In this document: positions 12,174-29,367 of the stretch, piece after piece
Layout: every line of letters begins with the position of its first letter
Numbering within the stretch: the first letter of the stretch is position 1
Assembly (NCBI GenBank): GCA_017312345.1
Contig: BLAA01000001.1
Span: 2,480,001 to 2,544,000, forward strand
Direction of reading: 5' to 3'
DNA length: 64,000 bases
From: Candidatus Denitrolinea symbiosum
GTDB taxonomy: Bacteria; Chloroflexota; Anaerolineae; Anaerolineales; Villigracilaceae
Notes under the pieces: model-generated
Database searches by the model: none
The model's input: the letters and a program-made list of their open reading frames with translations, nothing else
What the model was told of the DNA's origin: nothing
Position numbers and translations under genes: made by a program

Positions 12174-12216
12174 AGAATATCACAATTCTTATGCGGAGTC
12201 TTTGATTATTGTTAAA
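12174..12216 (-). promoter_or_regulatory. Class-II Crp/Fnr-type promoter of the haem-copper-like operon
   Basis: Box TTTGATTATTGTTAAA (12201-12216, FNR-like), centre 12208.5; -10 TATTCT at 12179-12174. Centre-to-hexamer distance is 29.5 bp. A second site of the type TGTGT-N6-TCACA (about 12169-12184) covers the -10. Predicted transcript start is near 12167, leaving a 34-nt leader with AAGGAG. Confidence 0.6.
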
Positions 12217-12283
12217 TAGAATGAGTGAAACAGAAAATAAATGCAAAATGAGGATGTTCGTTCTAAAGTTTGGATGACTTTTA

Positions 12284-12982
12284 TCACTCCAGAAAAGGCG
12301 CGTCCATTTGGGCCGCTTCCCCCAATGCCTTTGCATTTAGCACGTGAATCTCGGAACGGGTGGATGAAATCAAGTTGTGCCGCGCCAGTTCGCCCAATGC
12401 GCGGCTTACCGCCTCAGGCACGCTGGAAATACGCGCCGCCATTTGAGCGATGGAATGGTCGTTGCGTGAAATTACTTTCTGTCCGTTATCGCTTAATTCC
12501 AACAGCAACTTCGCCGTCCGTGCCCGCACCGGACGGAAGGATAGATCGGCATAGTGCGAAATCAACTGCCGGTTGCGGGCGGCCAATACTTTAAGCAAGG
12601 CAACCGAAAGCTCGGGGTGGCGCAATAGCAGTTTTTGAAACGGTTCGTAGTCAATCTGCCAGACCGTGCTGGCTTGAACTGTTTGGGCAGTCACCGGATT
12701 TTCGCTCCCGTCCAGCGCGGTCACTTCATTGAACATGGTAACGGGTTTAACGACCTTGATGATGTTCAACTGTCCTTGCGGCCCAATTTTAAGCAGGTGC
12801 ACCAGTCCGCTGAGCAGGACGTACATTCCGGCGCAGGGCGCGCCCTCATCGAAAATAATATCGTCGGTCTGAAAACGGCGCACTTTCCCGGCAATAACAA
12901 CCTGAATAATTTCAGATATGGGCATGTGCCGAAAATGTTTTACCGAGCGCAGGCTTTCTGCCAGGCGGTGAGTCTCATCCAT
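12284..12982 (-). CDS. Crp/Fnr-family transcription regulator (first of six)
   Basis: 232 residues: an N-terminal cyclic-nucleotide-binding-like beta roll (about 20-120, 'IIFDEGAPCAGMYVLLSG'), a dimerisation helix, and a C-terminal winged HTH with recognition helix 'SVPEAVSRALGEL'. The Fnr-type cluster of cysteines is absent, so it is not a [4Fe-4S] oxygen sensor of the classic kind. The gene lies between the two operons it may control. The mRNA is predicted to be leaderless. Confidence 0.88.
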   Translation of the reverse strand: MDETHRLAESLRSVKHFRHMPISEIIQVVIAGKVRRFQTDDIIFDEGAPCAGMYVLLSGLVHLLKIGPQGQLNIIKVVKPVTMFNEVTALDGSENPVTAQTVQASTVWQIDYEPFQKLLLRHPELSVALLKVLAARNRQLISHYADLSFRPVRARTAKLLLELSDNGQKVISRNDHSIAQMAARISSVPEAVSRALGELARHNLISSTRSEIHVLNAKALGEAAQMDAPFLE

Positions 12983-12988
12983 GCGGAT

Positions 12989-12994
12989 ATTATA
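12989..12994 (-). promoter_or_regulatory. -10 box of a leaderless gene (Crp/Fnr regulator)
   Basis: TATAAT on the minus strand lies 6 nt before the ATG at 12982; no Shine-Dalgarno sequence is present. Confidence 0.55.
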
Positions 12995-13043
12995 CTCAGT
13001 ATGGTTGAAATATCGGGCTTTATCAGAGGCAAAAATAAATACC

Positions 13044-13080
13044 GTCCCGAAGGTTCTCAGTTTTCGACAACCTTCGGGAC
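13044..13080 (-). terminator. Hairpin downstream of the gene at 13156
   Basis: A 12-bp perfect stem, GTCCCGAAGGTT with its inverse, and a 13-nt loop. On the minus strand it is followed by a T-rich stretch (GGTATTTATTTTTG), so it is a plausible terminator. Confidence 0.55.
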
Positions 13081-13155
13081 GTTTCCTATCGCTTGATGTG
13101 CCGAACAAACCCGCAGGTGAATATCGAGTCGTCAACAACAGGAGCGGGAGTGATG

Positions 13156-13764
13156 TTAACCTTTTCTCGCAAATCCCAGCGCGAACGCGCCGGTCATCAG
13201 GAAGAGCAGGGGAGTGAGGATCAACATCACAAAGGACGGGCTGAAGAACAGCAGCTGCGCGCCCATCGAGATGAACGCCAGCGCGATCCCGCCCAGGCCG
13301 ATGAGCAGTCCGCCAATTCCGACCCAGAAGAAGCCCTTCGGGGCGCCTTTGGCAAAGAACGGACCCAGGAAGACCACCAGTCCCGCCGCGCCGTGGAAGA
13401 GCGGCACGGCGATCTTCTTCAGCGCTTCCATCCCGCCGATGCTGGTGATGGCAATCGCCAGGATGCCGATGGTCACGAACCACTTGAAGTACTTCTTCCA
13501 CGAAGGGAAGTACTCCTCAGCCAGGCCCATGGAAATGCCGAGCGGGATCAGGCTCGCCACAGTCAGCACATAGGGCGAAGACAGGATGCCGAGGCCGAGG
13601 AAGATCAGCAACAAGCCTGAAACTAAAAGCACCGCAAAACCCATCAAATAGTACAGGTTATGCAGCGCTTTGTGCAGATTATACCTTCGCCAGAAATACC
13701 AGCAAAGGTAGGCGGCCAGGCCGCCGGTCAGAAGCAGAAAGATGATGTCTTTTAGTGGCGCCAT
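13156..13764 (-). CDS. Six-helix membrane protein, paralogue of the gene at 8158-8763
   Basis: 202 residues with about six membrane segments and end-to-end similarity to the protein at 8158. Shared blocks include 'LLVSGLLLIFLGLGILSSP' and 'GIGGLLIGLGGIALAF'. No catalytic motif is visible. AAGGAG lies 10 nt before the ATG. A monocistronic unit with its own class-II promoter upstream and a hairpin downstream. Unknown function. Confidence 0.72.
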   Translation of the reverse strand: MAPLKDIIFLLLTGGLAAYLCWYFWRRYNLHKALHNLYYLMGFAVLLVSGLLLIFLGLGILSSPYVLTVASLIPLGISMGLAEEYFPSWKKYFKWFVTIGILAIAITSIGGMEALKKIAVPLFHGAAGLVVFLGPFFAKGAPKGFFWVGIGGLLIGLGGIALAFISMGAQLLFFSPSFVMLILTPLLFLMTGAFALGFARKG

Positions 13765-13829
13765 TTGTGCATTCTCCTTTTTGGATGGTTTGAGTCTTAT
13801 AACACGGATGGGAGATATTGGATATGTGA

Positions 13830-13872
13830 ATTATCATACAAATGGTCGTCAATTTCTGTGACATTGGTCACA
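13830..13872 (-). promoter_or_regulatory. Class-II Crp-type promoter with a consensus CRP site
   Basis: Perfect dyad TGTGACATTGGTCACA at 13857-13872 (centre 13864.5) matches TGTGA-N6-TCACA. The -10, GATAAT on the minus strand, is at 13835-13830; distance 29.5 bp. Predicted start near 13823, 59 nt before the ATG at 13764. Confidence 0.65.
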
Positions 13873-13946
13873 AATCCGCTTCACACCTGGACTTTGAGGC
13901 GGGCGCGGCCTCCTCGGCCCGGTCTGCGGCGCGCCTGTCCCTGGGC

Positions 13947-13988
13947 GGCCTCCGCCCGCGAGGATCAAAGTTCGATTGGGCGGAGGCC
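13947..13988 (-). terminator. GC-rich hairpin after the gene at 14022
   Basis: GGCCTCCGCCC (13947-13957) pairs with GGGCGGAGGCC (13978-13988), an 11-bp perfect stem with a 20-nt loop. It lies just downstream of the minus-strand gene ending at 14022. No T-run follows, so termination is uncertain. Confidence 0.4.
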
Positions 13989-14021
13989 GTCAACAAGACA
14001 GTCGACGCGGCGCGCGCCTGT

Positions 14022-14813
14022 TCAGTTCGACGCGTTCCAGGCTTCGATCATCTTGCGTGTAGATGGACGAAGCAGGTAGACCAGTAAAGCCGTGCTCATC
14101 ACAGGCGCGACCAGGAACATGGAGAATCTGCCCTTCACGATCACGTCCGTCACGCCGACGGGGAATCCGCCGAACATGGACATGGCCGCCGCAAAGACTC
14201 CGACGGGCAGCGTCCACGATTTGCCTTTCACCAGCCCAAAGATGAAGGACGCCCAAACCGCCGCGCCCCACCAGTTCACCATCTGCGACATGGCGTATAT
14301 CGAACTGACGAAGCCTTTCGCCTCGGTCTGGTGGCGGGAGATCGCGCCGACGCCGTCAATGAACGTCAGCACGTACGCCAGCCCGCTTACGAACGCGACC
14401 GCGATGATTTTCTTGTCCACGCCGCCGATGAGGAGCATCCCGAACCACAGCGCGAACGCGATCAGGAACACCCAGATGGTCGGCGCGGGCAGCCCAATGC
14501 TGGAGGGCGGGATCATCGGAAAGAATCCCGCCAGGATCTGCACGGTCGCGGCCACCGTCCCCCAGAACCAGGCCCATTTGGCTCCGTTCAAGAATCCGTA
14601 CAAGACCATCACCCACAGCGCCCCTGCCGCCACGCCCAGCCAGCTCAATAGGGCGAAGACGATCTGCACGGTGATGGCTTCGTCGGGGCGTTCTCCAGCC
14701 ATCTTGCCGTCAATGTTGACCTGATAGATGTCCGACATCAGGAACAGTACGAGCAGTCCGGTCAGAATGCCGACGATCGCCAACGCTACTCCAAGTTTGT
14801 TGTTGCCTTTCAT
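14022..14813 (-). CDS. Eight-helix membrane protein, member 1 of a five-member paralogous family
   Basis: 263 residues with about eight membrane segments. It is a close tandem paralogue of the next gene upstream (14936-15751): 'WAWFWGTVAAT', 'AGFFPMIP', 'GLPAPTIWVFL' and 'SGLAYVLTFIDGV' are nearly identical. More distant copies lie at 23812, 26506 and 28259. The family ends in L-L-x-P-x-(F/T)-(K/R). AGGAGG precedes this ATG; an 18-nt longer TTG start would overlap that site. No known domain recognised. Confidence 0.72.
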   Translation of the reverse strand: MKGNNKLGVALAIVGILTGLLVLFLMSDIYQVNIDGKMAGERPDEAITVQIVFALLSWLGVAAGALWVMVLYGFLNGAKWAWFWGTVAATVQILAGFFPMIPPSSIGLPAPTIWVFLIAFALWFGMLLIGGVDKKIIAVAFVSGLAYVLTFIDGVGAISRHQTEAKGFVSSIYAMSQMVNWWGAAVWASFIFGLVKGKSWTLPVGVFAAAMSMFGGFPVGVTDVIVKGRFSMFLVAPVMSTALLVYLLRPSTRKMIEAWNASN

Positions 14814-14878
14814 GGCGAACCTCCTGTTCAAGTAGTATTACAGCGCAAGGCCCGACGCTGGGAGTCTGTTTTGCGCTT

Positions 14879-14906
14879 CAGACAGGCGTTGGAAAACGCC
14901 TGTCTG
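14879..14906 (-). terminator. Strong hairpin between two tandem paralogues
   Basis: CAGACAGGCGTT and its exact inverse form a 12-bp stem with a GGAA tetraloop. It sits between the stop at 14936 and the start at 14813. Without a T-run it may protect or attenuate the operon transcript rather than end it. Confidence 0.45.
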
Positions 14907-14935
14907 ACCTCGCGCTATACCGGTAGTATAAGGCC

Positions 14936-15751
14936 TTAAGATTGTTCAACGCCCAGCATTTTCTGCGTGCCGGGCAGTAACAGCACGATCAGCAGTATGG
15001 TGCTTAAGATGGGCGCGGGCAGGAACATCGAGAAGCGCTGGACCTCCGCTACGTTGTGGATGCCCATGGGGTATCCGCCGATCATGGACATGACGGCCGC
15101 GAAAATGCCCACGGGAGCCGCCCACGACTTCCGCTTAAGCGCCGCGAAAATAAAGACTGCCCAGGCCGCCGCGCCCCACCAGTTCACCTGCTGCGAAAGA
15201 ACGTACAGCCCATTCCAGAATGTGTTGGCGTTCTCGACGAAGGCGGTCGGCGCCTGGAAGGTGGTTTGGAATTTGGAGACCGGCGCAACGCCGTCAATGA
15301 AGGTCAGCACGTACGCCAGGCCGGCGGTGAAGGTCAATCCAATAATTCCCTTTTGGACGCCGCCGATGAACAACATTCCGAACCACATCACGGCGGCCAG
15401 CAGGAAGACCCACATGGTCGGGACGGGCAATCCGCTGTCTGCGGCGGGGATCATCGGGAAGAAACCAGCCAGCAGGAGAATGGTCGCGGCCACCGCGCCC
15501 CAGAACCATGCCCAGTCCTGCTTCTTGAGAAAGCCCCACAACACGGAGGCGGAAAGCGCGCCGGCGGCTGTTCCCAGCCAACCCAAGACCGCGTAAACGA
15601 GACGAACGGTATTGCTTTCCTCCCATTCGCCCGCGGCAAAGTGCGTGTGAATGACGGTGTTGTAGGTGTCCGCGATAAAGTACAGACAAAGAAGTCCTGC
15701 CACAATGCCGAGTACGGCGAGAATGGCTCCGAGCTTGTGGTTATTTTTCAT
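14936..15751 (-). CDS. Eight-helix membrane protein, member 2 of the five-member family
   Basis: 271 residues, about eight membrane segments, tandem duplicate of the gene at 14022. Key blocks are 'WAWFWGAVAAT', 'GFFPMIPAADSGLPVPTMWVF', 'LAYVLTFIDGVAPVSKF' and 'QVNWWGAAAWAVFIF'. AGGAGA precedes the ATG. It follows the CopD-like gene by 20 nt and belongs to the operon that starts at 17565. Function unknown. Confidence 0.72.
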   Translation of the reverse strand: MKNNHKLGAILAVLGIVAGLLCLYFIADTYNTVIHTHFAAGEWEESNTVRLVYAVLGWLGTAAGALSASVLWGFLKKQDWAWFWGAVAATILLLAGFFPMIPAADSGLPVPTMWVFLLAAVMWFGMLFIGGVQKGIIGLTFTAGLAYVLTFIDGVAPVSKFQTTFQAPTAFVENANTFWNGLYVLSQQVNWWGAAAWAVFIFAALKRKSWAAPVGIFAAVMSMIGGYPMGIHNVAEVQRFSMFLPAPILSTILLIVLLLPGTQKMLGVEQS

Positions 15752-15771
15752 TTTTTCTCCTGTTTTGGTTA

Positions 15772-16266: not shown

Positions 16267-16267
16267 G

Positions 16268-17019: not shown

Positions 17020-17276
17020 CGGACTGCCATTTCGCCCTGGCGGTTTTTTCTCTTGCGTTGGCCTTTGACAATATAGGGAAGCAGGTACAGGTAACCGCCC
17101 GTGATAGCCAGGGTCAGGATCAAAGGCGATTGCACGACATCCCACTTTTTCCATAATGCCATGAGTTCCGGGTCCCCAAGCAGTTTGAAGGTTATGCCGA
17201 AGGGGATGGTAATGGCGGTCGGCACGGCGATCCAGCGATGGATCTTCCGCAGCCATTTATTCAGGGATTTCGTCAT
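17016..17276 (-). CDS. Small membrane protein with a PepSY-like first helix
   Basis: 86 residues. 'LRKIHRWIAVPTAI' at the N-terminus resembles the R..HRW entry of PepSY-associated membrane helices, a haem- or redox-linked group. A second helix, 'LILTLAITGGYLYLL', is near 55-70. The start overlaps the BON gene by 20 nt and the stop overlaps the next ATG. The PepSY link is tentative. Confidence 0.6.
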   Translation of the reverse strand: MTKSLNKWLRKIHRWIAVPTAITIPFGITFKLLGDPELMALWKKWDVVQSPLILTLAITGGYLYLLPYIVKGQRKRKNRQGEMAVR

Positions 17277-17565
17277 AGCGGGTCGTTTTCTCCTTGAGAA
17301 TGGGAGAGAGTTGGATGCTGCGCGAGGGAGACGGCGCGCCGGGCGCCTCGATCCGGTTGACCACGCCGCGTACGCCCTCGGTCTCTTCGGCCAGTTCCGC
17401 AGCCAGGATGCGCGTCTCGATGGAATTGACCACGCCCGCCAGGTGGACGATCCCATTCAGCACGCCCACGCGCAGGCTGGCGTAGGCGGTGCGGTCGTCC
17501 GCCGCGAAACGGGACAGGATCGCGGCGCGCAATTTCTCATCGGGGTTTACGGGTTGGATGCTCAT
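17257..17565 (-). CDS. BON-domain protein
   Basis: 102 residues. The core 'VGVLNGIVHLAGVVNSIETR' followed by 'AEETEGVRGVVNRI' is a BON domain, a small alpha/beta fold that often binds membranes or partner proteins. There is no signal peptide from this ATG. First gene of a seven-gene minus-strand operon (to 14022); its promoter carries a GAC-N4-GTC dyad. Confidence 0.8.
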   Translation of the reverse strand: MSIQPVNPDEKLRAAILSRFAADDRTAYASLRVGVLNGIVHLAGVVNSIETRILAAELAEETEGVRGVVNRIEAPGAPSPSRSIQLSPILKEKTTRYDEIPE

Positions 17566-17578
17566 CTTTTCGCTCACA

Positions 17579-17626
17579 CAAAAAAGCAGGTCAGTCTGTT
17601 CCCAGTGTACAAACTGACCTGCTTCT
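17579..17626 (-). terminator. Rho-independent terminator overlapping a promoter
   Basis: AAGCAGGTCAGT (17584-17595) pairs with ACTGACCTGCTT (17613-17624). On the minus strand the stem is followed by TTTTTTG. It terminates the gene at 17675, but the -10 of the next promoter lies in its loop. Confidence 0.7.
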
Positions 17627-17645
17627 TGCATACGACTTTTGTCGT
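17604..17645 (-). promoter_or_regulatory. Class-II promoter with GAC-N4-GTC dyad, BON operon
   Basis: ACGACTTTTGTCGT at 17632-17645 (centre 17638.5) is a perfect dyad; the -10, TACACT, is at 17609-17604; distance 29.5 bp. Predicted start near 17597, 32 nt before the ATG at 17565. Confidence 0.65.
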
Positions 17646-17674
17646 GCGAAAAATCACAAATTGTCATCAGCCGA

Positions 17675-18064
17675 TCATGTCTTTCTTCCTGTTTTTTGCG
17701 ATTGACCGCGCGCTTGGGCAACCATCAGACCCAGAATGATTACCCAGACAACCAGCCTCAGCGTCATGGCTTGGATGCTGTCAGACGCCACCACGCCGCT
17801 ATAGGCGGTTTGCAGGATAAGCATGACGATGGCGTGCAGGCCGAATGTCCCGATGGCAGCCGGCATGGCGAACCTGCCGTTCATCCAAATGAGAGTAGCA
17901 GTGATGAACAGGGTCAGAATGCCCATGGTGTAATTGTAGAGCGGCAGCCAGTTGATCACGTAGTAGCCGGGGTCGTTGCCGAGCAGGACCCTGCCGCCCG
18001 CGAAGATTGCCATTGCGCCGATGACGAAGGCGAGAACCGACGCGATTTTATTGAGAATACTCAT
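17675..18064 (-). CDS. Four-helix membrane protein, paralogue of the gene at 16618
   Basis: 129 residues. Near-identical blocks with the 16618 protein: 'AMAIFAGGRVLLG', 'YYVINWLPLYNYTMG', 'AMTLRLVVWVII'. AGGAGA precedes the ATG. Expressed alone between its own promoter and the terminator at 17579-17626. Function unknown. Confidence 0.7.
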   Translation of the reverse strand: MSILNKIASVLAFVIGAMAIFAGGRVLLGNDPGYYVINWLPLYNYTMGILTLFITATLIWMNGRFAMPAAIGTFGLHAIVMLILQTAYSGVVASDSIQAMTLRLVVWVIILGLMVAQARGQSQKTGRKT

Positions 18065-18095: not shown

Positions 18096-18137
18096 AGTAT
18101 ATGCTGTGTCTGCCGGCATGTTAATGACTTAAGTCGG
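18096..18137 (-). promoter_or_regulatory. Class-II promoter with GAC-N4-GTC dyad between divergent genes
   Basis: Palindrome GACTTAAGTC at 18126-18135 (centre 18130.5); -10 TATACT at 18101-18096 on the minus strand; distance 29.5 bp. The same dyad overlaps the -35 region of a plus-strand TATAAT (18149-18154) for the divergent Crp/Fnr gene, so one site may control both. Confidence 0.65.
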
Positions 18138-18194: not shown

Positions 18195-18881
18195 ATGAAT
18201 CAAGGCGAGTCCCTTCCCCACAACTTATTTAAAGCAGTCTCCTATTTTTCAGGATTGGACGACGCCGCGCTGAACCTGGTGGCGCAGTCGGCGATCCGAC
18301 GCGCCTACGACGCAGGGCAGGTCGTGTTGATTGAAGGCGAACCCTGCGCAGGATTGTACATCATCGAGAGTGGGTGGTTGAAAGTAATCAAGATCGGGTT
18401 GGATGGACGCGAGCAGATGTTACAAATGCTCGCGTCTGGAGATATCTTCAACGGTATCAGCGTGTTCACTGATTCGCCCAATCAGGCGACTGTCTCGGCT
18501 TTAGAGCCGTCTGTGCTTTGGCTGGTTCCACGCGCAGTTCTGTTAAAATTAATGGATGAAAACCCCTTGTTGGCGCGCAAGGTCGTGAAAGACCTGGCGG
18601 AGCGCGTCATGCATCTTATTCGTATGGTGGAAGATCTATCCCTGCGTTCGGTGGAGGCGCGCCTCGCGCGAATTTTACTGGAGCAGGCGGAGGGCGAGTC
18701 GGTCGAACGCCGACGCTGGGCGACGCAGGCCGAAATGGCCTTCCGTCTTGGCACTGTCCCCGATGTGGTCAATCGCGCCCTTCGGAAACTATCGTCGGAT
18801 GGGATGATTCGCGTTGCGCGTCATCAAATCCAGATTTTGGATAGGGATGGATTGAGGGCTGTGGCGCAAGTGGTCGAGTAG
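18195..18881 (+). CDS. Crp/Fnr-family transcription regulator (second of six)
   Basis: 228 residues: sensor beta roll (about 25-125, 'VVLIEGEPCAGLYIIESG'), dimer helix and winged HTH with recognition helix 'TVPDVVNRALRKL'. No Fnr-type cysteine cluster. GAGAGG precedes this ATG, so the 108-nt longer frame is not needed. It is divergent from 17675 and upstream of the ferredoxin/M50 unit, all of which carry GAC-N4-GTC dyads, making it the best candidate for their regulator. Confidence 0.88.
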   Translation: MNQGESLPHNLFKAVSYFSGLDDAALNLVAQSAIRRAYDAGQVVLIEGEPCAGLYIIESGWLKVIKIGLDGREQMLQMLASGDIFNGISVFTDSPNQATVSALEPSVLWLVPRAVLLKLMDENPLLARKVVKDLAERVMHLIRMVEDLSLRSVEARLARILLEQAEGESVERRRWATQAEMAFRLGTVPDVVNRALRKLSSDGMIRVARHQIQILDRDGLRAVAQVVE

Positions 18882-18885
18882 AAAA

Positions 18886-18927
18886 CCGATAAAAGTCGTT
18901 GAACGAGGCTCGCTCAAGGTGTAAGTT
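18886..18927 (+). promoter_or_regulatory. Class-II promoter of the ferredoxin gene
   Basis: Imperfect dyad CCGATAAAAGTCGT at 18886-18899 (centre 18892.5) and a weak -10, TAAGTT, at 18922-18927; distance 29.5 bp. The leader would be about 114 nt. Confidence 0.45.
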
Positions 18928-19047
18928 GCTCATGCCTTGAGCGAAATTGTTTTTTATCGCCGCGCGGCGGCAGCCTCTCGCTGGACGGTTCCTTCAGCAG
19001 ACAGGGAGCCCGCCTGCGGTTTGCCGCGGCGCCAACAGGAGCGTTTC

Positions 19048-19341
19048 ATGACTTGCCTTGCCGATAGACCCATTCCCATCATTGATCTCCGCCTCTGCGA
19101 TGGGTGCGGATTATGCGCGCGCGCCTGTCCGAATCAGGCATTGACCGTGCGCGATGGAAAAGCCATTATCGCGGATCCGCTGGCCTGCGAATACGACGGC
19201 CTGTGCGAGCTGGTTTGTCCCGCGCGGGCGATCACGCGTCCGTTCGAGATCGTGATCGCGGAGGGAGAAACCCAGCCTTCAAATTCGACAAAAGTCGTTG
19301 AGAAATACAGGCCTGCATCTTACAATGCGGACGATGTATGA
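19048..19341 (+). CDS. 2[4Fe-4S]-type ferredoxin with one Cys-to-Asp substitution
   Basis: 97 residues. The first cluster motif is complete: Cys17, Cys20, Cys23, Cys27-Pro. In the second, Cys47-x2-Asp50-x2-Cys53-x3-Cys57-Pro, the second ligand is Asp. Asp-ligated clusters are known in ferredoxins such as that of Pyrococcus furiosus and can convert between [3Fe-4S] and [4Fe-4S]. AGGAG precedes this ATG. The 19285-19298 operator of the next gene lies within its last codons. Confidence 0.85.
   Translation: MTCLADRPIPIIDLRLCDGCGLCARACPNQALTVRDGKAIIADPLACEYDGLCELVCPARAITRPFEIVIAEGETQPSNSTKVVEKYRPASYNADDV
19285..19326 (+). promoter_or_regulatory. Class-II promoter of the M50 protease operon
   Basis: TCGACAAAAGTCGT at 19285-19298 (centre 19291.5) inside the end of the ferredoxin gene; -10 TACAAT at 19321-19326; distance 29.5 bp. 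Predicted start near 19333, about 97 nt before the ATG at 19430. Confidence 0.65.
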
Positions 19342-19429: not shown

Positions 19430-20560
19430 ATGAGCTGGTCGCTCAAACTATTCAAAGTCAAAGATATTGACATCAAAGTCCACATGACGTTTGTGTTAAT
19501 CTTGATTTGGGCGGCATACCGCTGGAGTCTCAGCACGGGCGAAGGGATACAGGGCGCGGTCTTCGGCGTCGCGGCGACGCTGCTGCTCTTCCTCAGCGTA
19601 ACCCTGCACGAACTGGGTCACAGCCTGCAAGCCATTAAGTTCGGCGTGCGCGTCAAGGATATTACCCTTATGCCGATGGGCGGGCTGGCGCGCCTGGATG
19701 AAATCCCGGAAGAGCCGAACAAAGAACTACGCATTGCCCTCGCGGGGCCGCTGGTCAACTTTGCGATTGCCGCGCTGCTGGTCGGGGTCGGCGCCCTTTT
19801 GGACGCCCGCGCCTTGATCTCGCTGGACGAATTGCAAGCCTCGCTCGGAAGTGTGAGCTGGAGCGGACTGCTGGCGTATCTAACCTCCGCGAACCTGCTT
19901 CTCGGTCTCTTCAACCTCATCCCCGCCTTCCCAATGGACGGCGGACGCGTCCTGCGCGCTTTGCTGGCAAAAAAAATGAATCATGTCAAAGCCACGCAAG
20001 TCGCCGCGCAGGTCGGTCAGGGACTTGCGTTCCTGATGGGGTTGTGGGGCTTTATCAGCGGAAGCTGGACTCTCGTCATCATCGCCGTCTTTGTCTGGAT
20101 GGGCGCGGGGCAGGAAAACCAGGGGGCGCAGGTCAAGCATACACTGGGCGACGCGACTGTCGGTCAGGCAATGACGCGCTCGCCTCACACGCTGAGGGTG
20201 AACGACTCGCTGTCCAAAGCCGTCGAGTTGACGTTGACCACCTCGCAGGCAGATTTCCCCGTGCTGGAATGGGGGAGTAATCGGGTTGTCGGCTTGATCG
20301 GCGAGGTGGACCTGCTGCGCGGCCTTCAGTCGTTGGGCGCGAACGGCGCGGCGCGGGAGATCATGCGCACGAAGATCGCCGTCGCCAGCCCGGGCGAATC
20401 GCTCCATGCCGCGCAGCAAAAAATGCTGACGAATCGCACGCGCGCCCTGCTTGTATTGAATCCCGACGGCGAACTGATGGGTTTGCTGACGGCGGACGAT
20501 GTCAATGAAGCCTATCGCCTGCTGACGGTCAATCCGCAGCTGGCGGCCAGCGCGCAGTGA
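19430..20560 (+). CDS. M50-family site-2-type metalloprotease with two C-terminal CBS domains
   Basis: 376 residues. Zinc motif HELGH near residue 60 and the second motif 'NLIPAFPMDGGRVLRA' near 160 are both intact in a bundle of about six membrane segments. Two CBS domains follow (about 245-370). Such proteases cleave membrane-bound regulators or process small membrane proteins, and CBS domains usually sense adenine nucleotides. AAAGGAG precedes this ATG. Substrates among the neighbouring small membrane proteins are possible but unproven. Confidence 0.9.
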   Translation: MSWSLKLFKVKDIDIKVHMTFVLILIWAAYRWSLSTGEGIQGAVFGVAATLLLFLSVTLHELGHSLQAIKFGVRVKDITLMPMGGLARLDEIPEEPNKELRIALAGPLVNFAIAALLVGVGALLDARALISLDELQASLGSVSWSGLLAYLTSANLLLGLFNLIPAFPMDGGRVLRALLAKKMNHVKATQVAAQVGQGLAFLMGLWGFISGSWTLVIIAVFVWMGAGQENQGAQVKHTLGDATVGQAMTRSPHTLRVNDSLSKAVELTLTTSQADFPVLEWGSNRVVGLIGEVDLLRGLQSLGANGAAREIMRTKIAVASPGESLHAAQQKMLTNRTRALLVLNPDGELMGLLTADDVNEAYRLLTVNPQLAASAQ

Positions 20561-22038: not shown

Positions 22039-22752
22039 TTAACGATGTCCGCGTTCTGCCAGCCCTTTCGGATCGAGCAGGACGATGGCTTGCTTCTCCA
22101 CCCTGAGCAGTCCCTCGGACTCGAGCGTCTTCAGCCCGCGGCTCAACACGTCGCGCACCGTCCCAAGCCGCACCGCCATTTCGTCGAACGTGGTCCAGTC
22201 GCGGCGCGGGACGATCAACTGTCCGCCGTGCGCCTCGGCGTGCTGCAAGAGCGTGTTTGCCAGGCGCGCTTCCACGTTTCGCAACGACAGGTCTTCGACC
22301 AGGCTGATATAGTGCAGCACGCGGTCGCTCAGGTGGCGGATGACGGCCATCGCCAGGGCGGGAAATTGTTGAGTCAGTTCCAACAGCTCGCCGGCTGGGA
22401 GCGCCCACGCGTCCACGTCTTCGAGCGCCACCACCGTGCCGGGATAGGTCGTGCCGCTGAACACGGCAATATCCCCGAAAATTTCCCCCGCTTCGAGGAA
22501 CAACATCGCCTGCTCGCGTCCGTCGCGCGACATGCGCGTGGCTTTGACCCAGCCGCGTTCGAGCAGGTAGAAAAATTCGGCCGGCTCGCCCTCGATATAG
22601 ATGACCTGTCCCGCCGCGAAGCGACGCGGGGAGGCCGACGCGGCGATCCGTTCCTGAACTTCGGGAGGCAGTCCGTCGAACCGGCGGATCCGTGAGAGAA
22701 GCGTTTTCAGCCGCGCGGAGGGCGCGAGGGCAGAGGATGGGTTTGTGGACAT
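22039..22752 (-). CDS. Crp/Fnr-family transcription regulator (third of six)
   Basis: 237 residues with the usual beta roll ('VIYIEGEPAEFFYLLERG'), dimer helix and winged HTH; recognition helix 'TVRDVLSRGLKTL'. No Fnr cysteines. A TAAAAT -10 at 22784-22779 (minus) lies in the 24-nt gap after the polyferredoxin gene. It converges on the haem-copper-like gene, with only 11 nt between the stops. Confidence 0.88.
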   Translation of the reverse strand: MSTNPSSALAPSARLKTLLSRIRRFDGLPPEVQERIAASASPRRFAAGQVIYIEGEPAEFFYLLERGWVKATRMSRDGREQAMLFLEAGEIFGDIAVFSGTTYPGTVVALEDVDAWALPAGELLELTQQFPALAMAVIRHLSDRVLHYISLVEDLSLRNVEARLANTLLQHAEAHGGQLIVPRRDWTTFDEMAVRLGTVRDVLSRGLKTLESEGLLRVEKQAIVLLDPKGLAERGHR

Positions 22753-23790: not shown

Positions 23791-23811
23791 TCAAAGGAGA
23801 ATGGGCCGAAC

Positions 23812-24657
23812 TCACCCTTCGGCCACTAATGCTTTTTTGAATTTGGGATTGAGCAGGACGATGAACAGGCCGATGATTACCGGCAAGCCGTACGAGTAGT
23901 CCCAGGAGACGGAGTCGGTCATGGTCAGGCGGATGATCTGCATGGGGACGTCTATGGCTACCAGCGACGTGACCGACACCAGCGCCAGCCACCAGCCCGC
24001 GAACTTGCGAGTCGCCAGCATGTAGATGGCGACCAGCAGCAGGATGACGCAGATCCACTGGATGGGCTGCGACCAGGCCAGCACCCACGCGCCCAGTCCG
24101 GCGTACATCGGCTTGCCGGGACGGGTGAGCAGCATCCGCATATTGCCGATGCCGACGATGAAGGCGTGCGTGCTGAGCATTCCGCAGAAGGTCATGGCGA
24201 GGAATTGTCCCCACTTCACCCACTTGTCCACGTTGCGGATCAGGATCAACGTCCAGAAGAAGATCAGCCCGATGAAGGAAACCACCATCGGCAGGGGGAA
24301 GCCTTTCACGAACGAGACGTAGGGCATGAACATGAAAAATCCGCCAGCCGAGGGGAAGGCCGAAGCCAGCGCCGCGGCAGGGAAGGTCCATTCTTCGCCG
24401 CGATGGATAGCCCGCGCCATCAAGATCAGCGCGATGCCGCCGACGAAGATCAGCCCTCGATAGAAGGGGAAGGCATACGAGAAGAGCAGGATTCCGCTGG
24501 CGTAGGCGGGTTTTTCGGCCGCCACCTTCACCAGTTCGGTCAGGATGCGTTCCAGCGTCTCCTGAATCAGGAAAGGCGCGACGATGACCATGAACAGGCC
24601 GACCACGACCGCCAAAATGGATAGGATCAAACGATTGTTTTGGGAAGTTTCTTTCAT
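23812..24657 (-). CDS. Multi-helix membrane protein, member 3 of the five-member family
   Basis: 281 residues with seven or eight membrane segments. Family marks: 'NNRLILSILAVVVGLFMVIVAP' at the start, 'GGFFMFMPYVSFVKGFPLP' in the middle, a DK after the next helix and 'LLNPKFKKAL' at the end. It resembles the 26506 and 28259 proteins more than the 14022/14936 pair. AGGAGA precedes this ATG. First gene of an operon with the 47-residue protein and the polyferredoxin. Confidence 0.72.
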   Translation of the reverse strand: MKETSQNNRLILSILAVVVGLFMVIVAPFLIQETLERILTELVKVAAEKPAYASGILLFSYAFPFYRGLIFVGGIALILMARAIHRGEEWTFPAAALASAFPSAGGFFMFMPYVSFVKGFPLPMVVSFIGLIFFWTLILIRNVDKWVKWGQFLAMTFCGMLSTHAFIVGIGNMRMLLTRPGKPMYAGLGAWVLAWSQPIQWICVILLLVAIYMLATRKFAGWWLALVSVTSLVAIDVPMQIIRLTMTDSVSWDYSYGLPVIIGLFIVLLNPKFKKALVAEG

Positions 24658-24691
24658 TGGTTTCTCCTCATCGGATGTTTGATTTGTGTGT

Positions 24692-24734
24692 AAAATATCA
24701 CAATCCATCGCGGAATTCTTTGCCTTAAGGCAAA
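24692..24734 (-). promoter_or_regulatory. Class-II promoter with TTTGC dyad, polyferredoxin operon
   Basis: Perfect 16-bp palindrome TTTGCCTTAAGGCAAA at 24719-24734 (centre 24726.5); -10 TATTTT at 24697-24692; distance 29.5 bp. TGTGTAAAATATCACA at 24687-24702 covers the -10. Predicted start near 24685. Confidence 0.65.
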
Positions 24735-24770
24735 TTAATGTTTGGCGGCAGCGTTCTCGGAGGCGCGAAC

Positions 24771-24800
24771 AAAACAGGCGAACCGTAGTTCGCCTGTTTT
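24771..24800 (-). terminator. Rho-independent terminator of the FmdE-like gene
   Basis: AAAACAGGCGAAC, loop CGTA, then the exact inverse ending in TTTT; on the minus strand it continues TTTTGTTCG. It lies 25 nt after the stop at 24825. Confidence 0.8.
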
Positions 24801-24824
24801 GTATTGGCAGCGATTTGCAGCCTG

Positions 24825-26360
24825 TTATTTCTCGTAAACGGTCACGGTGAAGAAGCCGCTCATGTCGGCGTTTTCCAGGACGAAGATCGCGCGGTCGTTC
24901 CAGTACTTTTGATAGTCAACCGCCTCTTCAGCAGTGGCCTGTCCCAGCGCCATTTTCTTGCCCATTTCCGTGCGCGCAGGCGTCGGGATCGGCAGGATGA
25001 CGACCAGGTTGAACTTGACGCCGACTTTCGCGCCCGTGTCGAGGCGGGTGAAGACCCATTCCCGCATCGGGGGGAGTTGCTCGGTGGGCTTATCTTTGTA
25101 GACCATTTTGTTTTGGCGCACAAAGAGGTCGTTCACGGTCCCAAACTCTGAGCCGTTGAACCCGGTTTTGGGCGACGCGCCGGTGACAAAGGTGATCACC
25201 TCGCCGAACACGCCGACGAACCATTCATCTTCCGCGCCGGGGGCGTCCACCGCGATCTGTCCGCGCACAGGGACTTCGCCGTTGGGGTACAGCGCTTCCA
25301 GGGCTTTCTTGGTGATGATCCACGCGCCGGTGACCGCGCCGCAGGAATGCCCGGACAATTTGACGGCTTCCTCGTAATAGTAGGGGACGGGGCCGGTCGT
25401 CTGGCCAAAAATGTCGAAGTATGGCTCCGTCATCATAATGGGCGGGACCGCGGTGATGTAGTCCTGTTCCCAGGCGAAATTCTCAGCCGAGACGGGAGCG
25501 GGTTGGTCCGCGCCGGCCGCCGGGGCGGCGCCTTCCTGGTAGACCTTGACGTTGAAGAATCCGTCCAGGCTGTCGGCATTTTCAAAGACGAACTTTGCGC
25601 GGTCGTTCCAGTATTTGTAGTAATCTGCCGCTTCTTCGGGCGAGGCCTCGCCGGCCGCCATCTTCTTGCCCATGGCCTGGCGTTCGGGCGTCGCGATCGG
25701 GGTGATGACCGCCAGGTTGAAGTTCACGCCCACTTTCGCGCCGTTATCCAGGCGGGTGAAGATCCATTCCAACTGCGGAGGCTGTTTTCCGCTGGGCGCA
25801 TCCAGGTAGACCATTTTGTTCTGGCGGACGAAGATCTTGTTGGCCTGTCCGAACTCTGCGCCGATGAAACCTGTCTTCGGCGCCGCGCCGGTGATGAAGG
25901 TGATGATCTCTCCAAACACGCCGACAAACCATTCATCTTCGGCGCCCGGGGCTTCCACCGCGATATTTCCGCGTACGGGAATCTCGCCGTTGGGATAGAG
26001 AACCTCCAGCGCCTTGCGGGTGATCGTCCACGCCCCGGCGGTCGCGCCGCAGGAATGTCCCGCCAGTTTGACGGCTTCCTCATAATAATAGGGAACCGCG
26101 ACCTCCGACTGCCCGAAAATCTGGAAATACGGGTCGATCATCCAGATGGGCTGGATCTGTGTGATGTAATCCTGCGTCCAAAGGGATTCCTCCGGGGCCT
26201 CGGTGGGCGCGGGTTCTTCGGTGACCGCCTCGGTCGGGACCTCGGATGGGACCTCGGTGGCGGGCGCGGGCTTGGGCGCGCTGGTCGGCGCCGGCGCGCA
26301 GGCTCCCAGAATCAGCGCGATGATGATCAGCGCTGACGGGACGAAGAAAAGGCGTTTCAT
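24825..26360 (-). CDS. Lipoprotein with two tandem FmdE-like domains
   Basis: 511 residues. Signal peptide with lipobox ending LGAC (Cys21), then a Pro/Thr/Glu-rich tether (22-58). Two copies of a ~215-residue domain follow (about 61-276 and 297-511). Each has GHSCGA (101-106; 337-342), then 'GAWTITRKALEVLYPNGE' type helices and 'EDEWFVGVFGEIITFITGA'. The GH-x-C pattern resembles the FmdE domain of formylmethanofuran dehydrogenase, thought to bind metal. Here it is outside the membrane. AGGAGA precedes this ATG. Single-gene unit with its own promoter and terminator. The FmdE assignment is by motif only. Confidence 0.7.
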   Translation of the reverse strand: MKRLFFVPSALIIIALILGACAPAPTSAPKPAPATEVPSEVPTEAVTEEPAPTEAPEESLWTQDYITQIQPIWMIDPYFQIFGQSEVAVPYYYEEAVKLAGHSCGATAGAWTITRKALEVLYPNGEIPVRGNIAVEAPGAEDEWFVGVFGEIITFITGAAPKTGFIGAEFGQANKIFVRQNKMVYLDAPSGKQPPQLEWIFTRLDNGAKVGVNFNLAVITPIATPERQAMGKKMAAGEASPEEAADYYKYWNDRAKFVFENADSLDGFFNVKVYQEGAAPAAGADQPAPVSAENFAWEQDYITAVPPIMMTEPYFDIFGQTTGPVPYYYEEAVKLSGHSCGAVTGAWIITKKALEALYPNGEVPVRGQIAVDAPGAEDEWFVGVFGEVITFVTGASPKTGFNGSEFGTVNDLFVRQNKMVYKDKPTEQLPPMREWVFTRLDTGAKVGVKFNLVVILPIPTPARTEMGKKMALGQATAEEAVDYQKYWNDRAIFVLENADMSGFFTVTVYEK

Positions 26361-26415
26361 TTTTTTCTCCTTGTGAAAGTTTAGATGAGTGCCCAATGGG
26401 ACACCATTAATGTGA

Positions 26416-26459
26416 AAAATATCACAACTCGAGGCGGTAAATCTTTGCTTTAAAGCAAA
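26416..26459 (-). promoter_or_regulatory. Class-II promoter with TTTGC dyad, FmdE-like gene
   Basis: Perfect palindrome TTTGCTTTAAAGCAAA at 26444-26459 (centre 26451.5); -10 TATTTT at 26421-26416; distance 30.5 bp. TGTGAAAAATATCACA at 26411-26426 is an exact TGTGA-N6-TCACA site over the -10. Confidence 0.65.
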
Positions 26460-26489
26460 CTCGGGACCTCCCTTGATAGATCCCGAGTT
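26458..26489 (-). terminator. Hairpin after the gene at 26506
   Basis: AACTCGGGA and TCCCGAGTT form a 9-bp stem with a 14-nt loop. It abuts the operator of the next gene; on the minus strand TTTGCTTT follows. Confidence 0.5.
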
Positions 26490-26505
26490 GCTAAAGAGAA
26501 AGCGG

Positions 26506-27378
26506 TTAGTTGGAATACTCTGTCAACAGGCGCTGTTTGAAGACCGGGATGAGAAGCATGACAACGATGCCAACTCCCATCAGCGCGCCGTAGAGATAGT
26601 CGTTCGTGGCGTGACGGACATAGTGTGTGGCCGCGCTCGCGACCAGGGTCACCAGGCCGCCGATCAGCCCGGCGTACCAGCCGGAGACCTTCTTTTCGCC
26701 CAGCAGGTAGATGGCCGCGATGCAGAAGCCCATGGCGACCCATAACGCCAGCCAGCCGAAGTACGTGATGGCGATTCCCTCGGCGAAGAGCGGGCGGGCG
26801 GGATGCCCGAACAGGATGCGGAAGGCCGCGTGTCCGTTGGCGAAGTTTTCAGCCGCGGTCACGCCCAACAGCAGAAAGACGAGGAAGTCCACGACTTTTT
26901 GCGTAGCGTCCACTTTTTCGGCGAGAATGAGGACGAAGTAGGGGATCAGGCCGATAGTCATGATCGTGACCGCTGGCGGGAATCCGCCTTTGGCGCTGCC
27001 GATGAAGTTCATCCACGGGACGATCATGTACGCGCCGCCGATGGCCGGTATCGCAAGACAGAGCAGGGCCAGTCCGCGCGTCCACCTTTCGCCGCGAAAG
27101 AGCGGAAGCGCGATCACCAGCAGGACAATGCCGGCGATAAGCGACATCGTGCTCCAGAATGGGAAAAAGAAACTGACGAGCCAGACGGTGTAAGCCAGCA
27201 GCGGAGCCTGCGGGTTGTTCTCGGCTGTGAATTTTTCGATGCGCGCTTGCTGGGCCTTGACGATCGGGTTGACCATGTCGTATCCGATGAACGGGATGAC
27301 CGCAATCATGAGGATTGCGGCGATCACCACAAGGGTGACCACTACAAGACGAACCTGGCGGGGTGTGGAAAGTAGCAT
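26506..27378 (-). CDS. Multi-helix membrane protein, member 4 of the five-member family
   Basis: 290 residues with seven or eight membrane segments. Family blocks: 'GGAYMIVPWMNFIG', 'GGFPPAVTIMTIGLIPYFVLIL', 'KKVSGWYAGLIGG' and terminal 'LLIPVFKQRL'. The first periplasmic or cytoplasmic loop is longer than in member 3. GGAGG precedes the ATG. Divergent from the Crp/Fnr gene at 27520, with an FNR-like box between them. Confidence 0.72.
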   Translation of the reverse strand: MLLSTPRQVRLVVVTLVVIAAILMIAVIPFIGYDMVNPIVKAQQARIEKFTAENNPQAPLLAYTVWLVSFFFPFWSTMSLIAGIVLLVIALPLFRGERWTRGLALLCLAIPAIGGAYMIVPWMNFIGSAKGGFPPAVTIMTIGLIPYFVLILAEKVDATQKVVDFLVFLLLGVTAAENFANGHAAFRILFGHPARPLFAEGIAITYFGWLALWVAMGFCIAAIYLLGEKKVSGWYAGLIGGLVTLVASAATHYVRHATNDYLYGALMGVGIVVMLLIPVFKQRLLTEYSN

Positions 27379-27438
27379 TCTTCCTCCGGTTGATGTGAAT
27401 TGTCCTGAAATTGGTTCAGGTTGTGATAATATGCACTT

Positions 27439-27481
27439 ATAATAGCGGTACTGTCCCTTTTTCGCCTTGACTTATATCAAG
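27439..27481 (-). promoter_or_regulatory. Class-II promoter with FNR-type box
   Basis: CTTGACTTATATCAAG at 27466-27481 (centre 27473.5) matches the FNR/DNR pattern TTGAY-N4-ATCAA; -10 TATTAT at 27444-27439; distance 29.5 bp. The box also lies just before the divergent Crp/Fnr gene and downstream of a plus-strand TATAAT (27438-27443), where binding could block transcription of that gene. Confidence 0.65.
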
Positions 27482-27519
27482 AATTTGTGACGCCTGCACA
27501 ATTGGAAAGGATGAGACGT

Positions 27520-28191
27520 ATGCAACAACTGCTTGCCCTGTTGAACGATACAGAGGTGTTTGGCAAGTTCTCAGACGCTCAAAAGCAGCGGCTGGCATCG
27601 CTGGCTGCGCGGCGTACGGTGGAGCGGGGCAGCGCCATCTTGTGGCAGGGGGACCATTGGCCGAACGTGCTGCTGATCGCGTCCGGGCAACTCCGCTCTG
27701 TGATTCATTCACCGGATGGAAAAAGCTACGTAATGTCAACCTGGAACGCGGGACAGGAATTTTGGGGACACACGCTTTTTGATGACGAGCCAATGCCGTC
27801 CACCCTGGAGGCCGTTCAGGATAGCATCGTATATCAATGGGATGGGGAGAAAGCCCTGAAGATCCTGTTCGAGAATTCGGAAGCCATCCGCGCTTTGCTG
27901 CGCCGCCAGGTGCAGGTCATCCGTAAGCGCCGCGCGACGATCTCCGACCTGGCCTTTCAACCCGTGACGGGACGCCTGGCGAAACTCTTGCTGGAGCGCG
28001 TCCCCGCTTCGGAGAATATGGCGCAACGCGACCTGACTCTCGACCAGATCGCGTCTATGGTGGCTTCGTCTCCCGAGGTGATCTGCCGCACGCTCTATCA
28101 GTTCCAGCGGGACGGTATGCTCCAGATCACGCGCGCCAGCATCACTCTCCGTGACCGTACGGCGCTGGAGCGATTGGTCGGCGTGGAATGA
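27520..28191 (+). CDS. Crp/Fnr-family transcription regulator (fourth of six)
   Basis: 223 residues. The beta roll has 'AILWQGDHWPNVLLIASGQL', a Trp-containing variant shared with the two regulators at 29619 and 30296, so the three form a subgroup with an altered ligand pocket. Recognition helix 'SSPEVICRTLYQF'. No Fnr cluster. The start is uncertain: this ATG has AAGG 9 nt upstream; an ATG at 27511 and a GTG at 27487 are in frame. Confidence 0.85.
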   Translation: MQQLLALLNDTEVFGKFSDAQKQRLASLAARRTVERGSAILWQGDHWPNVLLIASGQLRSVIHSPDGKSYVMSTWNAGQEFWGHTLFDDEPMPSTLEAVQDSIVYQWDGEKALKILFENSEAIRALLRRQVQVIRKRRATISDLAFQPVTGRLAKLLLERVPASENMAQRDLTLDQIASMVASSPEVICRTLYQFQRDGMLQITRASITLRDRTALERLVGVE

Positions 28192-28194
28192 CGA

Positions 28195-28234
28195 ATGGCG
28201 GAATGGGGCTGGGCGCCCGGCCTCATTCCGCCAT
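28195..28234. terminator. Bidirectional hairpin between convergent genes
   Basis: ATGGCGGAATG (28195-28205) pairs with CATTCCGCCAT (28224-28234), an 11-bp stem between the stops at 28191 and 28259. Confidence 0.5.
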
Positions 28235-28258
28235 GGAAAATTGGACGAGCGTCCCGCG

Positions 28259-29263
28259 CTAATCGCCTTTTTCGATCAGGAATTGCTTGAAGGCGGGGAT
28301 GAGCAGGACTGCCAACAGGACGGCAGAAAGCATTCCGCCCTGCAGCCACTCGGTGGAGTGACGCACGATGAAGCCCTGGAAGCTGACCACCGCGGTAGCC
28401 AGCGCCGCGGTCGTGGCGATGTACCAGCCAGCCTTGTTCTTCATCGCCATCAGCGGGATGGAGACGATCAGCAGGGCCGAAGCGATGTAGAGCAGGAATC
28501 CGCCGAGCAGGAGCGCCAACGTCTGCGGGCTATATACGGCTTGTTCCGAGACCATCTCGAAGGTTTGCCAATCCAGATGGTCGAGGTTGGTGATGAAATG
28601 CGCCAGCGGGGAGGTGAACGGAGGCGGGGTGGGATTGGCGACAATCAGACCGTTGGCGTTGGTGGCGAAATTACCCGGGATGTGGATGAAGTAGCGCACG
28701 CCGTGCTGCCCGTTCATAAAGACCATGCCCGAGACGATGCCCAGGAAGGTGAAGGGGATCAGTTTCAATGCCTTGTTCTTGAGCGTGTCGGTGTCCGCCA
28801 GCAGAATGGCGAAGTAGAACAGCAGGTTTACGAACAGGATCGGCATGGCGGGCGGCATCCCGCTGACGGTGTGCGGGGGGACGCCTTTTTCGGGATACTC
28901 AGCCAGCACCAGCACGAACCAGGGGATCATCATCGTCATCCCCGCCACGGACGGGACGGCGAACAATCCAAGCGCGGCGGCGCGCGCCCACTTTACGCCT
29001 TCGTAGATCTTCTTCGCCAGGATCAACAGCATGGCCCCGGCCAGCACGAAGGCGATGATCCACACAGAGAAGGTGGTCGAAAGGATCGGCACAGCAGGAT
29101 AGAAATCCGCGTCGTACGGAATGAGGCGCAGGATCACCTGGTCGAGCGCGATCTTCAGGGTCTGCATGGCCTGGGTGGGAGCCAGCAGCATCAAGTACAG
29201 GCCGCCGACAACCGCCACGATGGTCATGACGAGACGGTGAGTTTTTGTAGTTTCGTTCTTCAT
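28259..29263 (-). CDS. Multi-helix membrane protein, member 5 of the five-member family
   Basis: 334 residues, the longest member, with an insertion before the last helices. Family blocks: 'HRLVMTIVAVVGGLYLMLLAP', 'AGMTMMIPWFVLVL', 'GMPPAMPILFVNLLFYFAILLAD', 'KAGWYIATTAALA' and 'LLIPAFKQFL'. A His pair in 'NGQHGVRYFIHIPG' matches 'NGHAAFRILFGHPA' of member 4. AGGAG precedes the ATG. Single-gene unit. Confidence 0.72.
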   Translation of the reverse strand: MKNETTKTHRLVMTIVAVVGGLYLMLLAPTQAMQTLKIALDQVILRLIPYDADFYPAVPILSTTFSVWIIAFVLAGAMLLILAKKIYEGVKWARAAALGLFAVPSVAGMTMMIPWFVLVLAEYPEKGVPPHTVSGMPPAMPILFVNLLFYFAILLADTDTLKNKALKLIPFTFLGIVSGMVFMNGQHGVRYFIHIPGNFATNANGLIVANPTPPPFTSPLAHFITNLDHLDWQTFEMVSEQAVYSPQTLALLLGGFLLYIASALLIVSIPLMAMKNKAGWYIATTAALATAVVSFQGFIVRHSTEWLQGGMLSAVLLAVLLIPAFKQFLIEKGD

Positions 29264-29324
29264 TATGATTCTCCTCGAAATTGATATAATGAGCCTGCCA
29301 GAGCAGGAAGCAATTTACATGAGA

Positions 29325-29367
29325 AAAATATCACAAACGTGTCGTTCCGTCTTTGCATTTTTATAAA
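29325..29367 (-). promoter_or_regulatory. Class-II promoter with degenerate TTTGC box
   Basis: TTTGCATTTTTATAAA at 29352-29367 (centre 29359.5) keeps one TTTGC half; -10 TATTTT at 29330-29325; distance 29.5 bp. TGAGAAAAATATCACA at 29320-29335 covers the -10. Confidence 0.55.

Follow-up and report, generated by a model that had tools for sequence, protein, structure and literature searches.

A 64,000-nucleotide stretch of the Candidatus Denitrolinea symbiosum genome (contig BLAA01000001.1, positions 2,480,001 to 2,544,000; hereafter, the window) contains ten genes that are each preceded by a dyad-symmetric box and a -10-like hexamer, in a cluster that also encodes six regulators of the Crp/Fnr family. 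Comparison of the sequences with those of relatives indicates that these are very probably ten sigma-70-type promoters on the class II Crp/Fnr plan. The window belongs to a 3.7-Mb genome, and the relatives carrying the cluster are genome bins of Anaerolineales/Chloroflexota. The ten target genes are as follows.

10658 to 12133, minus strand: G1, a 491-amino-acid polytopic membrane protein with a predicted fold like that of heme-copper oxidase subunit I
13156 to 13764, minus strand: G3, a 202-amino-acid membrane protein
17257 to 17565, minus strand: G10, a BON-domain protein (PF04972)
17675 to 18064, minus strand: G11, a small membrane protein of 129 amino acids
19048 to 19341, plus strand: G13, a 4Fe-4S ferredoxin
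19430 to 20560, plus strand: G14, a site-2-protease-like M50 peptidase with CBS domains
23812 to 24657, minus strand: G20, a 281-amino-acid membrane protein
24825 to 26360, minus strand: G21, a lipoprotein-like protein with an internal duplication
26506 to 27378, minus strand: G22, a 290-amino-acid membrane protein
28259 to 29263, minus strand: G24, a 334-amino-acid membrane protein

The initial annotation had named ten dyads and hexamers with a fixed spacing, and all of them are present at the positions and in the orientation given there. The distance from the dyad center to the first base of the hexamer is 29.5 base pairs (bp) at 12201, 13857, 17632, 18126, 18886, 19285, 24719, 27466, and 29352, and 30.5 bp at 26444. 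The exact 16-bp boxes start at 12201, 13857, 17631, 18123, 18885, 19284, 24719, 26444, 27466, and 29352, and the first bases of the hexamers in the direction of transcription are 12179, 13835, 17609, 18101, 18922, 19321, 24697, 26421, 27444, and 29330. Relative to the inferred transcription start, the hexamer occupies -12 to -7; reckoned from this -10 element, with 29.5 bp before its first base, the dyad center falls at about -41.5, as had been claimed.

12201 to 12216, minus strand: G1 promoter dyad TTTAACAATAATCAAA, center 12208.5
12174 to 12179, minus strand: G1 -10 hexamer TATTCT with TG (TTGTGATATTCT)
13857 to 13872, minus strand: G3 promoter dyad TGTGACCAATGTCACA, center 13864.5
13830 to 13835, minus strand: G3 -10 hexamer GATAAT, within a second dyad, TGTaT-N6-TCACA
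17631 to 17646, minus strand: BON-gene (G10) promoter dyad CACGACAAAAGTCGTA, center 17638.5
17604 to 17609, minus strand: BON-gene -10 hexamer TACACT, inside a terminator-like hairpin loop
18123 to 18138, minus strand: G11 promoter dyad TCCGACTTAAGTCATT, center 18130.5
18096 to 18101, minus strand: G11 -10 hexamer TATACT, with -35 element TTAACA and a 17-bp spacer
18885 to 18900, plus strand: ferredoxin (G13) promoter dyad ACCGATAAAAGTCGTT, center 18892.5
18922 to 18927, plus strand: ferredoxin -10 hexamer TAAGTT (TATGTT or TATGCT in relatives), inside a terminator-like hairpin loop
19284 to 19299, plus strand: M50 protease (G14) promoter dyad TTCGACAAAAGTCGTT, center 19291.5
19321 to 19326, plus strand: M50 protease -10 hexamer TACAAT, with -35 element TTGAGA and a 17-bp spacer
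24719 to 24734, minus strand: G20 promoter dyad TTTGCCTTAAGGCAAA, center 24726.5
24692 to 24697, minus strand: G20 -10 hexamer TATTTT (TTGTGATATTTT)
26444 to 26459, minus strand: G21 promoter dyad TTTGCTTTAAAGCAAA, center 26451.5, at 30.5 bp
26416 to 26421, minus strand: G21 -10 hexamer TATTTT, the core of TGTGATATTTTTCACA
27466 to 27481, minus strand: G22 promoter dyad CTTGACTTATATCAAG, between G22 and a Crp gene, center 27473.5
27439 to 27444, minus strand: G22 -10 hexamer TATTAT (TACCAT, TACGAT, or TACACT in relatives)
29352 to 29367, minus strand: G24 promoter dyad TTTATAAAAATGCAAA, center 29359.5
29325 to 29330, minus strand: G24 -10 hexamer TATTTT (TTTGTGATATTTTTCTCA)

The window by itself would prove the spacing only weakly, and it is the comparison with relatives that decides. 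A scan of a 22.5-kb region with a generic model (a dyad, 29.5 or 30.5 bp, and TANNNT), the check suggested by the initial annotation, returned 5 matches against a mean of 2.3 in shuffled sequence, with 5 of 60 dinucleotide shuffles scoring as high, which is too weak to decide. Upstream regions of the orthologues of all ten genes were taken from about 40 syntenic loci. When these regions were stacked without gaps on the dyad, the hexamer appeared at a constant offset, gene by gene. Among 90 non-redundant orthologous box regions, it lies at 29.5 bp in 69 and at 30.5 bp in 12 (81 of 90 together), and the other offsets average 1.5% with a maximum of 5%. Specific box types were also searched for in the syntenic DNA of about 40 relatives (about 0.65 Mb in total), and the histogram of TANNNT offsets peaks exactly at 29.5, where five box types have 17, 23, 13, 4, and 4 sites against a per-offset mean of 0.1–1.1. 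The TGTGA-N6-TCACA box type in relatives peaks at 29.5/30.5 with NATAAT (11 + 7). In the better-sampled families, identity within the 13-nucleotide core of the spacer is 0.26–0.43, near background, compared with 0.71–0.92 for the boxes, and the distance from hexamer to ATG ranges from 7 to 191 bp among relatives; therefore, it is the distance and not the sequence that is conserved. The families of G11, G13, and G14, with 2–4 close sequences each, are less diverged (spacer identity 0.62–0.77).

A further test was independent of the cluster and used a pattern that queries one half of the dyad only. In 152 family genomes, CAAAGA-N13/14-TTGTGATA has 61 matches, 49 of them at N13, compared with 1 when the pattern is reversed as a control, and the same two elements separated by N16–26 have 61 matches spread over eleven gap lengths, with 12 in the control. 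The upstream half of the dyad that was not queried (mostly TTTG) is present in 22 of 29 distinct pattern matches. In the genome of the window itself, the N13/14 pattern occurs only at the sites 12201, 24719, 26444, and 29352.

The anatomy of the promoters is also informative. Of 81 sequences, 50 have a TG dinucleotide at -15/-14, mainly those of G1, G3, G20, G21, and G24, and 51 keep GA at -33/-32. Promoters with a TGn extended -10 mostly have a poor -35 element (2.0–3.5 of 6 positions). The combination of a weak -35 and an extended -10 is found at G1, G3, G20, G21, and G24 but not at G11, G13, and G14, while G10 and G22 have a poor -35 element yet no TG. In the FNR class II promoter of the chlorite dismutase gene of Ideonella dechloratans, the operator is centered at -41.5, the hexamer spans -12 to -7, and TG is at -15/-14 (PMC7349173). 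Taken together, the relatives, the genome-wide spacing test, the un-queried half-dyad, and the promoter anatomy strongly support the class II geometry and the identity of these sites as promoters.

The boxes themselves are of at least four types, and no single motif is common to all members. Type A (TTTGCnTTAAnGCAAA) is found at G20 and G21, with the variant TTTATAAAAAnKCAAA at G24; type B, or CGAC-type (CGACWWAAGTCG), is found at G10, G11, G13, and G14; and type C (TGTGA-N6-TCACA) is found at G3. The FNR/DNR-like operator TTGAC-N4-GTCAA or its relatives are found at G22 and G1. The TGTGA-N6-TCACA and TTGAC-N4-GTCAA types match known Crp/Fnr dyads, and dyads of the TTTGC and CGAC types agree with them in length and layout. 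Even for a single gene, the operator may be exchanged: amongst G1 orthologues, the box is TTTGTCTTTTGTCAAA in most (TTTGTC..GTCAAA) and TGTGAC..GTCACA, TTTGACATTTAGCAAA, or TTTGCTTTTATGCAAA in others, with the spacing constant. In another genome of the same species (G007), the regulator gene upstream of G1 is absent and G3 is directly followed by G1 with a different box (compared at L034/L035), unlike the window, where a Crp/Fnr gene (12284–12982) and a new G1 promoter box lie between G3 and G1.

Six regulators matching Crp/Fnr family models are located in one 18-kb cluster.

12284 to 12982, minus strand: Crp/Fnr regulator, recognition residues PEAVSR
18195 to 18881, plus strand: Crp/Fnr regulator, PDVVNR, adjoining CGAC-type boxes
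22039 to 22752, minus strand: Crp/Fnr regulator, RDVLSR, in relatives immediately 5' of the BON gene and its CGAC-type box
27520 to 28191, plus strand: Crp/Fnr regulator, PEVICR, divergent from G22
29619 to 30299, plus strand: Crp/Fnr regulator, RELVSR, divergent from G24
30296 to 30973, plus strand: Crp/Fnr regulator, REMVCR, its start overlapping the stop of the preceding gene

The recognition residues are largely constant within each subfamily across species (REMVCR, RELVSR, PEVICR, RDVLSR, and PDVVNR, with PDVLSR in distant members). Inspection of the six sequences found no 4Fe-4S motif of FNR proper (N-terminal CX2CX5C and a fourth cysteine). Of 12 loci where a type-B box precedes the BON gene, 11 also have, in the stretch retrieved, a gene for a D-type regulator (RDVLSR or PDVVNR); in 9 of these it is the next mapped gene upstream of the BON gene, which suggests that D-type regulators may pair with type-B boxes. 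Other candidate pairs are PEVICR with the TTGAC box and RELVSR or REMVCR with the TTTGC boxes. Several regulators probably use the one layout. A regulon of membrane proteins, as the initial annotation had concluded, is unsupported as regards a single regulon, given at least four operator types adjoining regulators with different recognition helices; most targets are indeed membrane proteins, but the BON protein, the ferredoxin, and the lipoprotein are not. Overall, the earlier interpretation is partly supported: its class II reading was right in the main, and the regulon claim is better worded as several Crp/Fnr regulons with one common promoter geometry.

The same geometry probably also occurs outside the cluster, where CRP-type boxes at L123, L124, and L131 (C1:1146614, C1:1376805, and C4:22960) have TATATT, TATTCT, and TATACT, respectively, at exactly 29.5 bp. 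A candidate regulator for TGTGA-N6-TCACA boxes, with residues REVVAR, is encoded close to additional boxes of this type, at about 1.14 Mb. CGAC-type dyads number 18 genome-wide against 4 in the control, and their use as a genome-wide test was rejected because, away from the cluster, the majority belong to a repeated GTAACGACTTAAGTCGTTAC element or lack a -10 at the spacing. At C1:2747555–2753193 of the same genome (L115–L120), short palindromic repeats (GTAACGACTTAAGTCGTTACTACG) contain the core of the CGAC-type box with no -10 at 29.5 bp.

Two promoters overlap hairpins with the features of intrinsic terminators, namely a stable hairpin and a T-run downstream of a co-directional gene.

17584 to 17624, minus strand: intrinsic-terminator-like hairpin AAGCAGGTCAGT..ACTGACCTGCTT followed by a T-run, overlapping the BON promoter
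18910 to 18944, plus strand: terminator-like hairpin TCGCTCAAGG..CCTTGAGCGA that follows the Crp gene and overlaps the ferredoxin promoter

The BON-gene hairpin is present in 9 loci, where 98.9% of alignment cells pair and 10 cells have changes on both sides, a value reached by 0 of 500 shuffles. Where the upstream gene is co-directional, the hairpin occurs in 9 of 10 loci, and where that gene is divergent, in 0 of 2, as expected of a terminator. At the ferredoxin promoter, the -10 lies in the hairpin loop in 4 of 4 sequences, and the arm sequences differ in one relative. The promoters at 17632 and 18886, whose hairpin arms covary in relatives, are predicted to be conserved terminator/promoter overlaps. 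An inverted repeat (e.g., CAGCCTG..CAGGCTG or CTGACCCG..CGGGTCAG) flanks the G1 -10 in many relatives with differing arms (L069, L079, L082, L090, L098, L101, and L104); it was rejected as a terminator, with arms that pair in part of the relatives and the T-run missing. Another inverted repeat, CCTGAAC..TTCAGG, is located between the G22 -10 and the start codon (27387–27420), and its arms differ in relatives (CCCTGAA..CAGGG, TCTGAAC..GTTCAGA). Several copies of a palindromic repeat of the GGATTCCGAAAGTTCTACTTTCGGAATCC type lie at 29395–29580, in the interval that separates G24 from the regulator gene at 29619.

At G3, G20, G21, and G24, the bases 3' of the hexamer complete a second, TGTGA-N6-TCACA-like dyad on the -10 element, centered at about -9.5 and 32 bp from the first. 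Its right half after the hexamer is TCACA or TCTCA, with CAC kept in 19 of 22 sequences at G3, 11 of 12 at G20, 2 of 3 at G21, and 3 of 4 at G24. The second dyad is absent at G1, G10, G11, G13, G14, and G22, and therefore provides no general explanation of the hexamers. Its position suggests that it is perhaps a repressor site.

A mechanism consistent with these observations is that a dimeric Crp/Fnr regulator would bind the 16-bp dyad at about -41.5, covering the -35 region, while RNA polymerase would use the -10 hexamer at -12 to -7 and the TG at -15/-14, in about half of the ten, would compensate for a poor -35 element. The related regulators encoded in the cluster would each recognize their own dyad type and all act from one position, so that the spacing would be kept while the operators change. 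Activation is the most likely outcome, and the second Crp-type dyad on the -10 at four promoters could permit repression by the same or another regulator. At the terminator/promoter overlaps, the anatomy and covariation suggest that RNA started in the loop would lack the ascending arm and escape termination, whereas read-through RNA would stop.

Several alternatives have to be weighed against the class II reading. AT-rich intergenic DNA might always offer some hexamer about 30 bp from some dyad, and the generic model in the window alone (5 vs. 2.3) does not contradict this. The argument from constancy made in the initial annotation becomes compelling only with the relatives: the hexamer is at 29.5/30.5 bp in 81 of 90 orthologous boxes, with each other offset averaging about 1.5%; the pattern has 61 matches against 1 reversed in 152 genomes; and the half-dyad is present in 22 of 29 matches. 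These results refute chance and leave it a negligible probability. The hexamers could instead be simply the middle six bases of another Crp-type dyad in a tandem operator, with the real promoter elsewhere, as the conserved right half at G3, G20, G21, and G24 and the placement of 26416–26421 within TGTGATATTTTTCACA would allow. However, G1 retains TGTGATATTTT but the right half in 3 of 19 sequences only; G10, G11, G13, G14, and G22 have no second dyad yet keep TANNNT at the same distance; and at G20 the ribosome-binding site is so near that no promoter would fit between, all of which makes tandem operators very unlikely.

The dyads may also be repressor operators overlapping the -35 element rather than activator sites. 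At G11, G13, and G14, -35 elements directly abut the box, and 10 of 12 promoter positions match at 18126 and 19285. In the other seven families, the -35 mean is 1.4–3.5 of 6 and most have an extended -10, as in activator-dependent promoters (PMC7349173). Exact spacing of the kind observed would be unnecessary for a repressor, and repression as the general role of the boxes is unlikely. For 17632 and 18886, the hairpin might be the only functional element and the loop hexamer incidental, a reading favored by the strength and covariation of the hairpins, by the T-runs after them, and by their location between co-directional genes. Nevertheless, the dyad is conserved at a constant distance from the loop hexamer, and L079 and L082, which have no hairpin and a divergent upstream gene, still have TATACT at 29.5 bp, so this explanation is likewise improbable. 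A few points do weigh against the class II reading. The -35 elements at G11, G13, and G14 (18126, 18886, and 19285) are good (4.2–5.0 of 6) with no TG, and therefore activation is less certain at these three sites, where the box could repress. The families of G11, G13, G14, G21, G22, and G24 have 2–5 non-redundant sequences each, the assignment of regulators to boxes is inferred from neighborhood, and the other CGAC-type dyads in the genome sit in unrelated repeats with no -10 at this distance.

Amongst the targets, G1 and its orthologues have no credible match in Pfam at expect values (E) up to 1. Its predicted structure (mean predicted local distance difference test score of 75) retrieves mostly heme-copper oxidase subunit I as the top solved structures, with a template-modeling score of 0.56–0.60, about 11% identity, and a best E of 0.025 against ba3 oxidase. 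The invariant histidines include H225-x-H227 and H377-x-H379. A G1 sequence profile had no significant match to COX1 proteins of relatives, and the claim is therefore limited to similarity of fold; G1 is possibly an undescribed branch of the heme-copper oxidase superfamily. It is found in 82 of 152 family genomes, mostly at 57–89% identity. Neighboring genes encode a UbiA prenyltransferase and a NapH-like ferredoxin protein, and a respiratory role of the targets appears likely. G21 (24825–26360) is built of two halves, each about 220 amino acids long, that resemble each other.

The kind of promoter described here is textbook; what is new is the array, the turnover of operators at fixed spacing, and the terminator/promoter overlap. 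The literature searched contained no described Crp/Fnr promoters from Anaerolineae/Anaerolineales and nothing close to promoters inside terminator loops. A conserved bifunctional terminator-promoter, together with operator swapping amongst paralogous regulators at a fixed -41.5, would constitute a modular promoter scaffold, an interpretation that we favor by a slight margin. The sequence rule is precise enough for whole-genome prediction of promoters and regulons in uncultured Anaerolineales. It also links Crp/Fnr control to the heme-copper-oxidase-like membrane protein, which is widespread and unannotated, and to the neighbors of that protein. The array is a natural series in which regulator specificity and operators change while the polymerase contact stays fixed, and the terminator/promoter overlap is open to direct test.

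Operators of the DNR/NnrR/FixK/FNR type have the form TTGAC/T-N4-A/GTCAA, a core common to the box at 27466 and the usual box of G1 orthologues. The box at 13857 is an exact match to the CRP operator TGTGA-N6-TCACA, and TTTGCnTTAAnGCAAA and CGACWWAAGTCG depart from the textbook FNR and CRP consensus. In E. coli frd/ampC, terminator and promoter overlap such that the end of one transcript coincides with the control region of the next gene. The overlaps in the Anaerolineales cluster are alike in this respect but differ in that the -10 is placed within the terminator loop and is conserved in many species. The class II FNR and CRP promoters of E. coli and I. dechloratans (PMC7349173) share with the ten promoters the dyad at -41.5 and the hexamer at -12 to -7, and with those of G1, G3, G20, G21, and G24 also the weak -35 element and the TG at -15/-14. 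Unlike those promoters, the present array belongs to an Anaerolineales host, has at least four operator types on one scaffold, and includes four second dyads on the -10 element.

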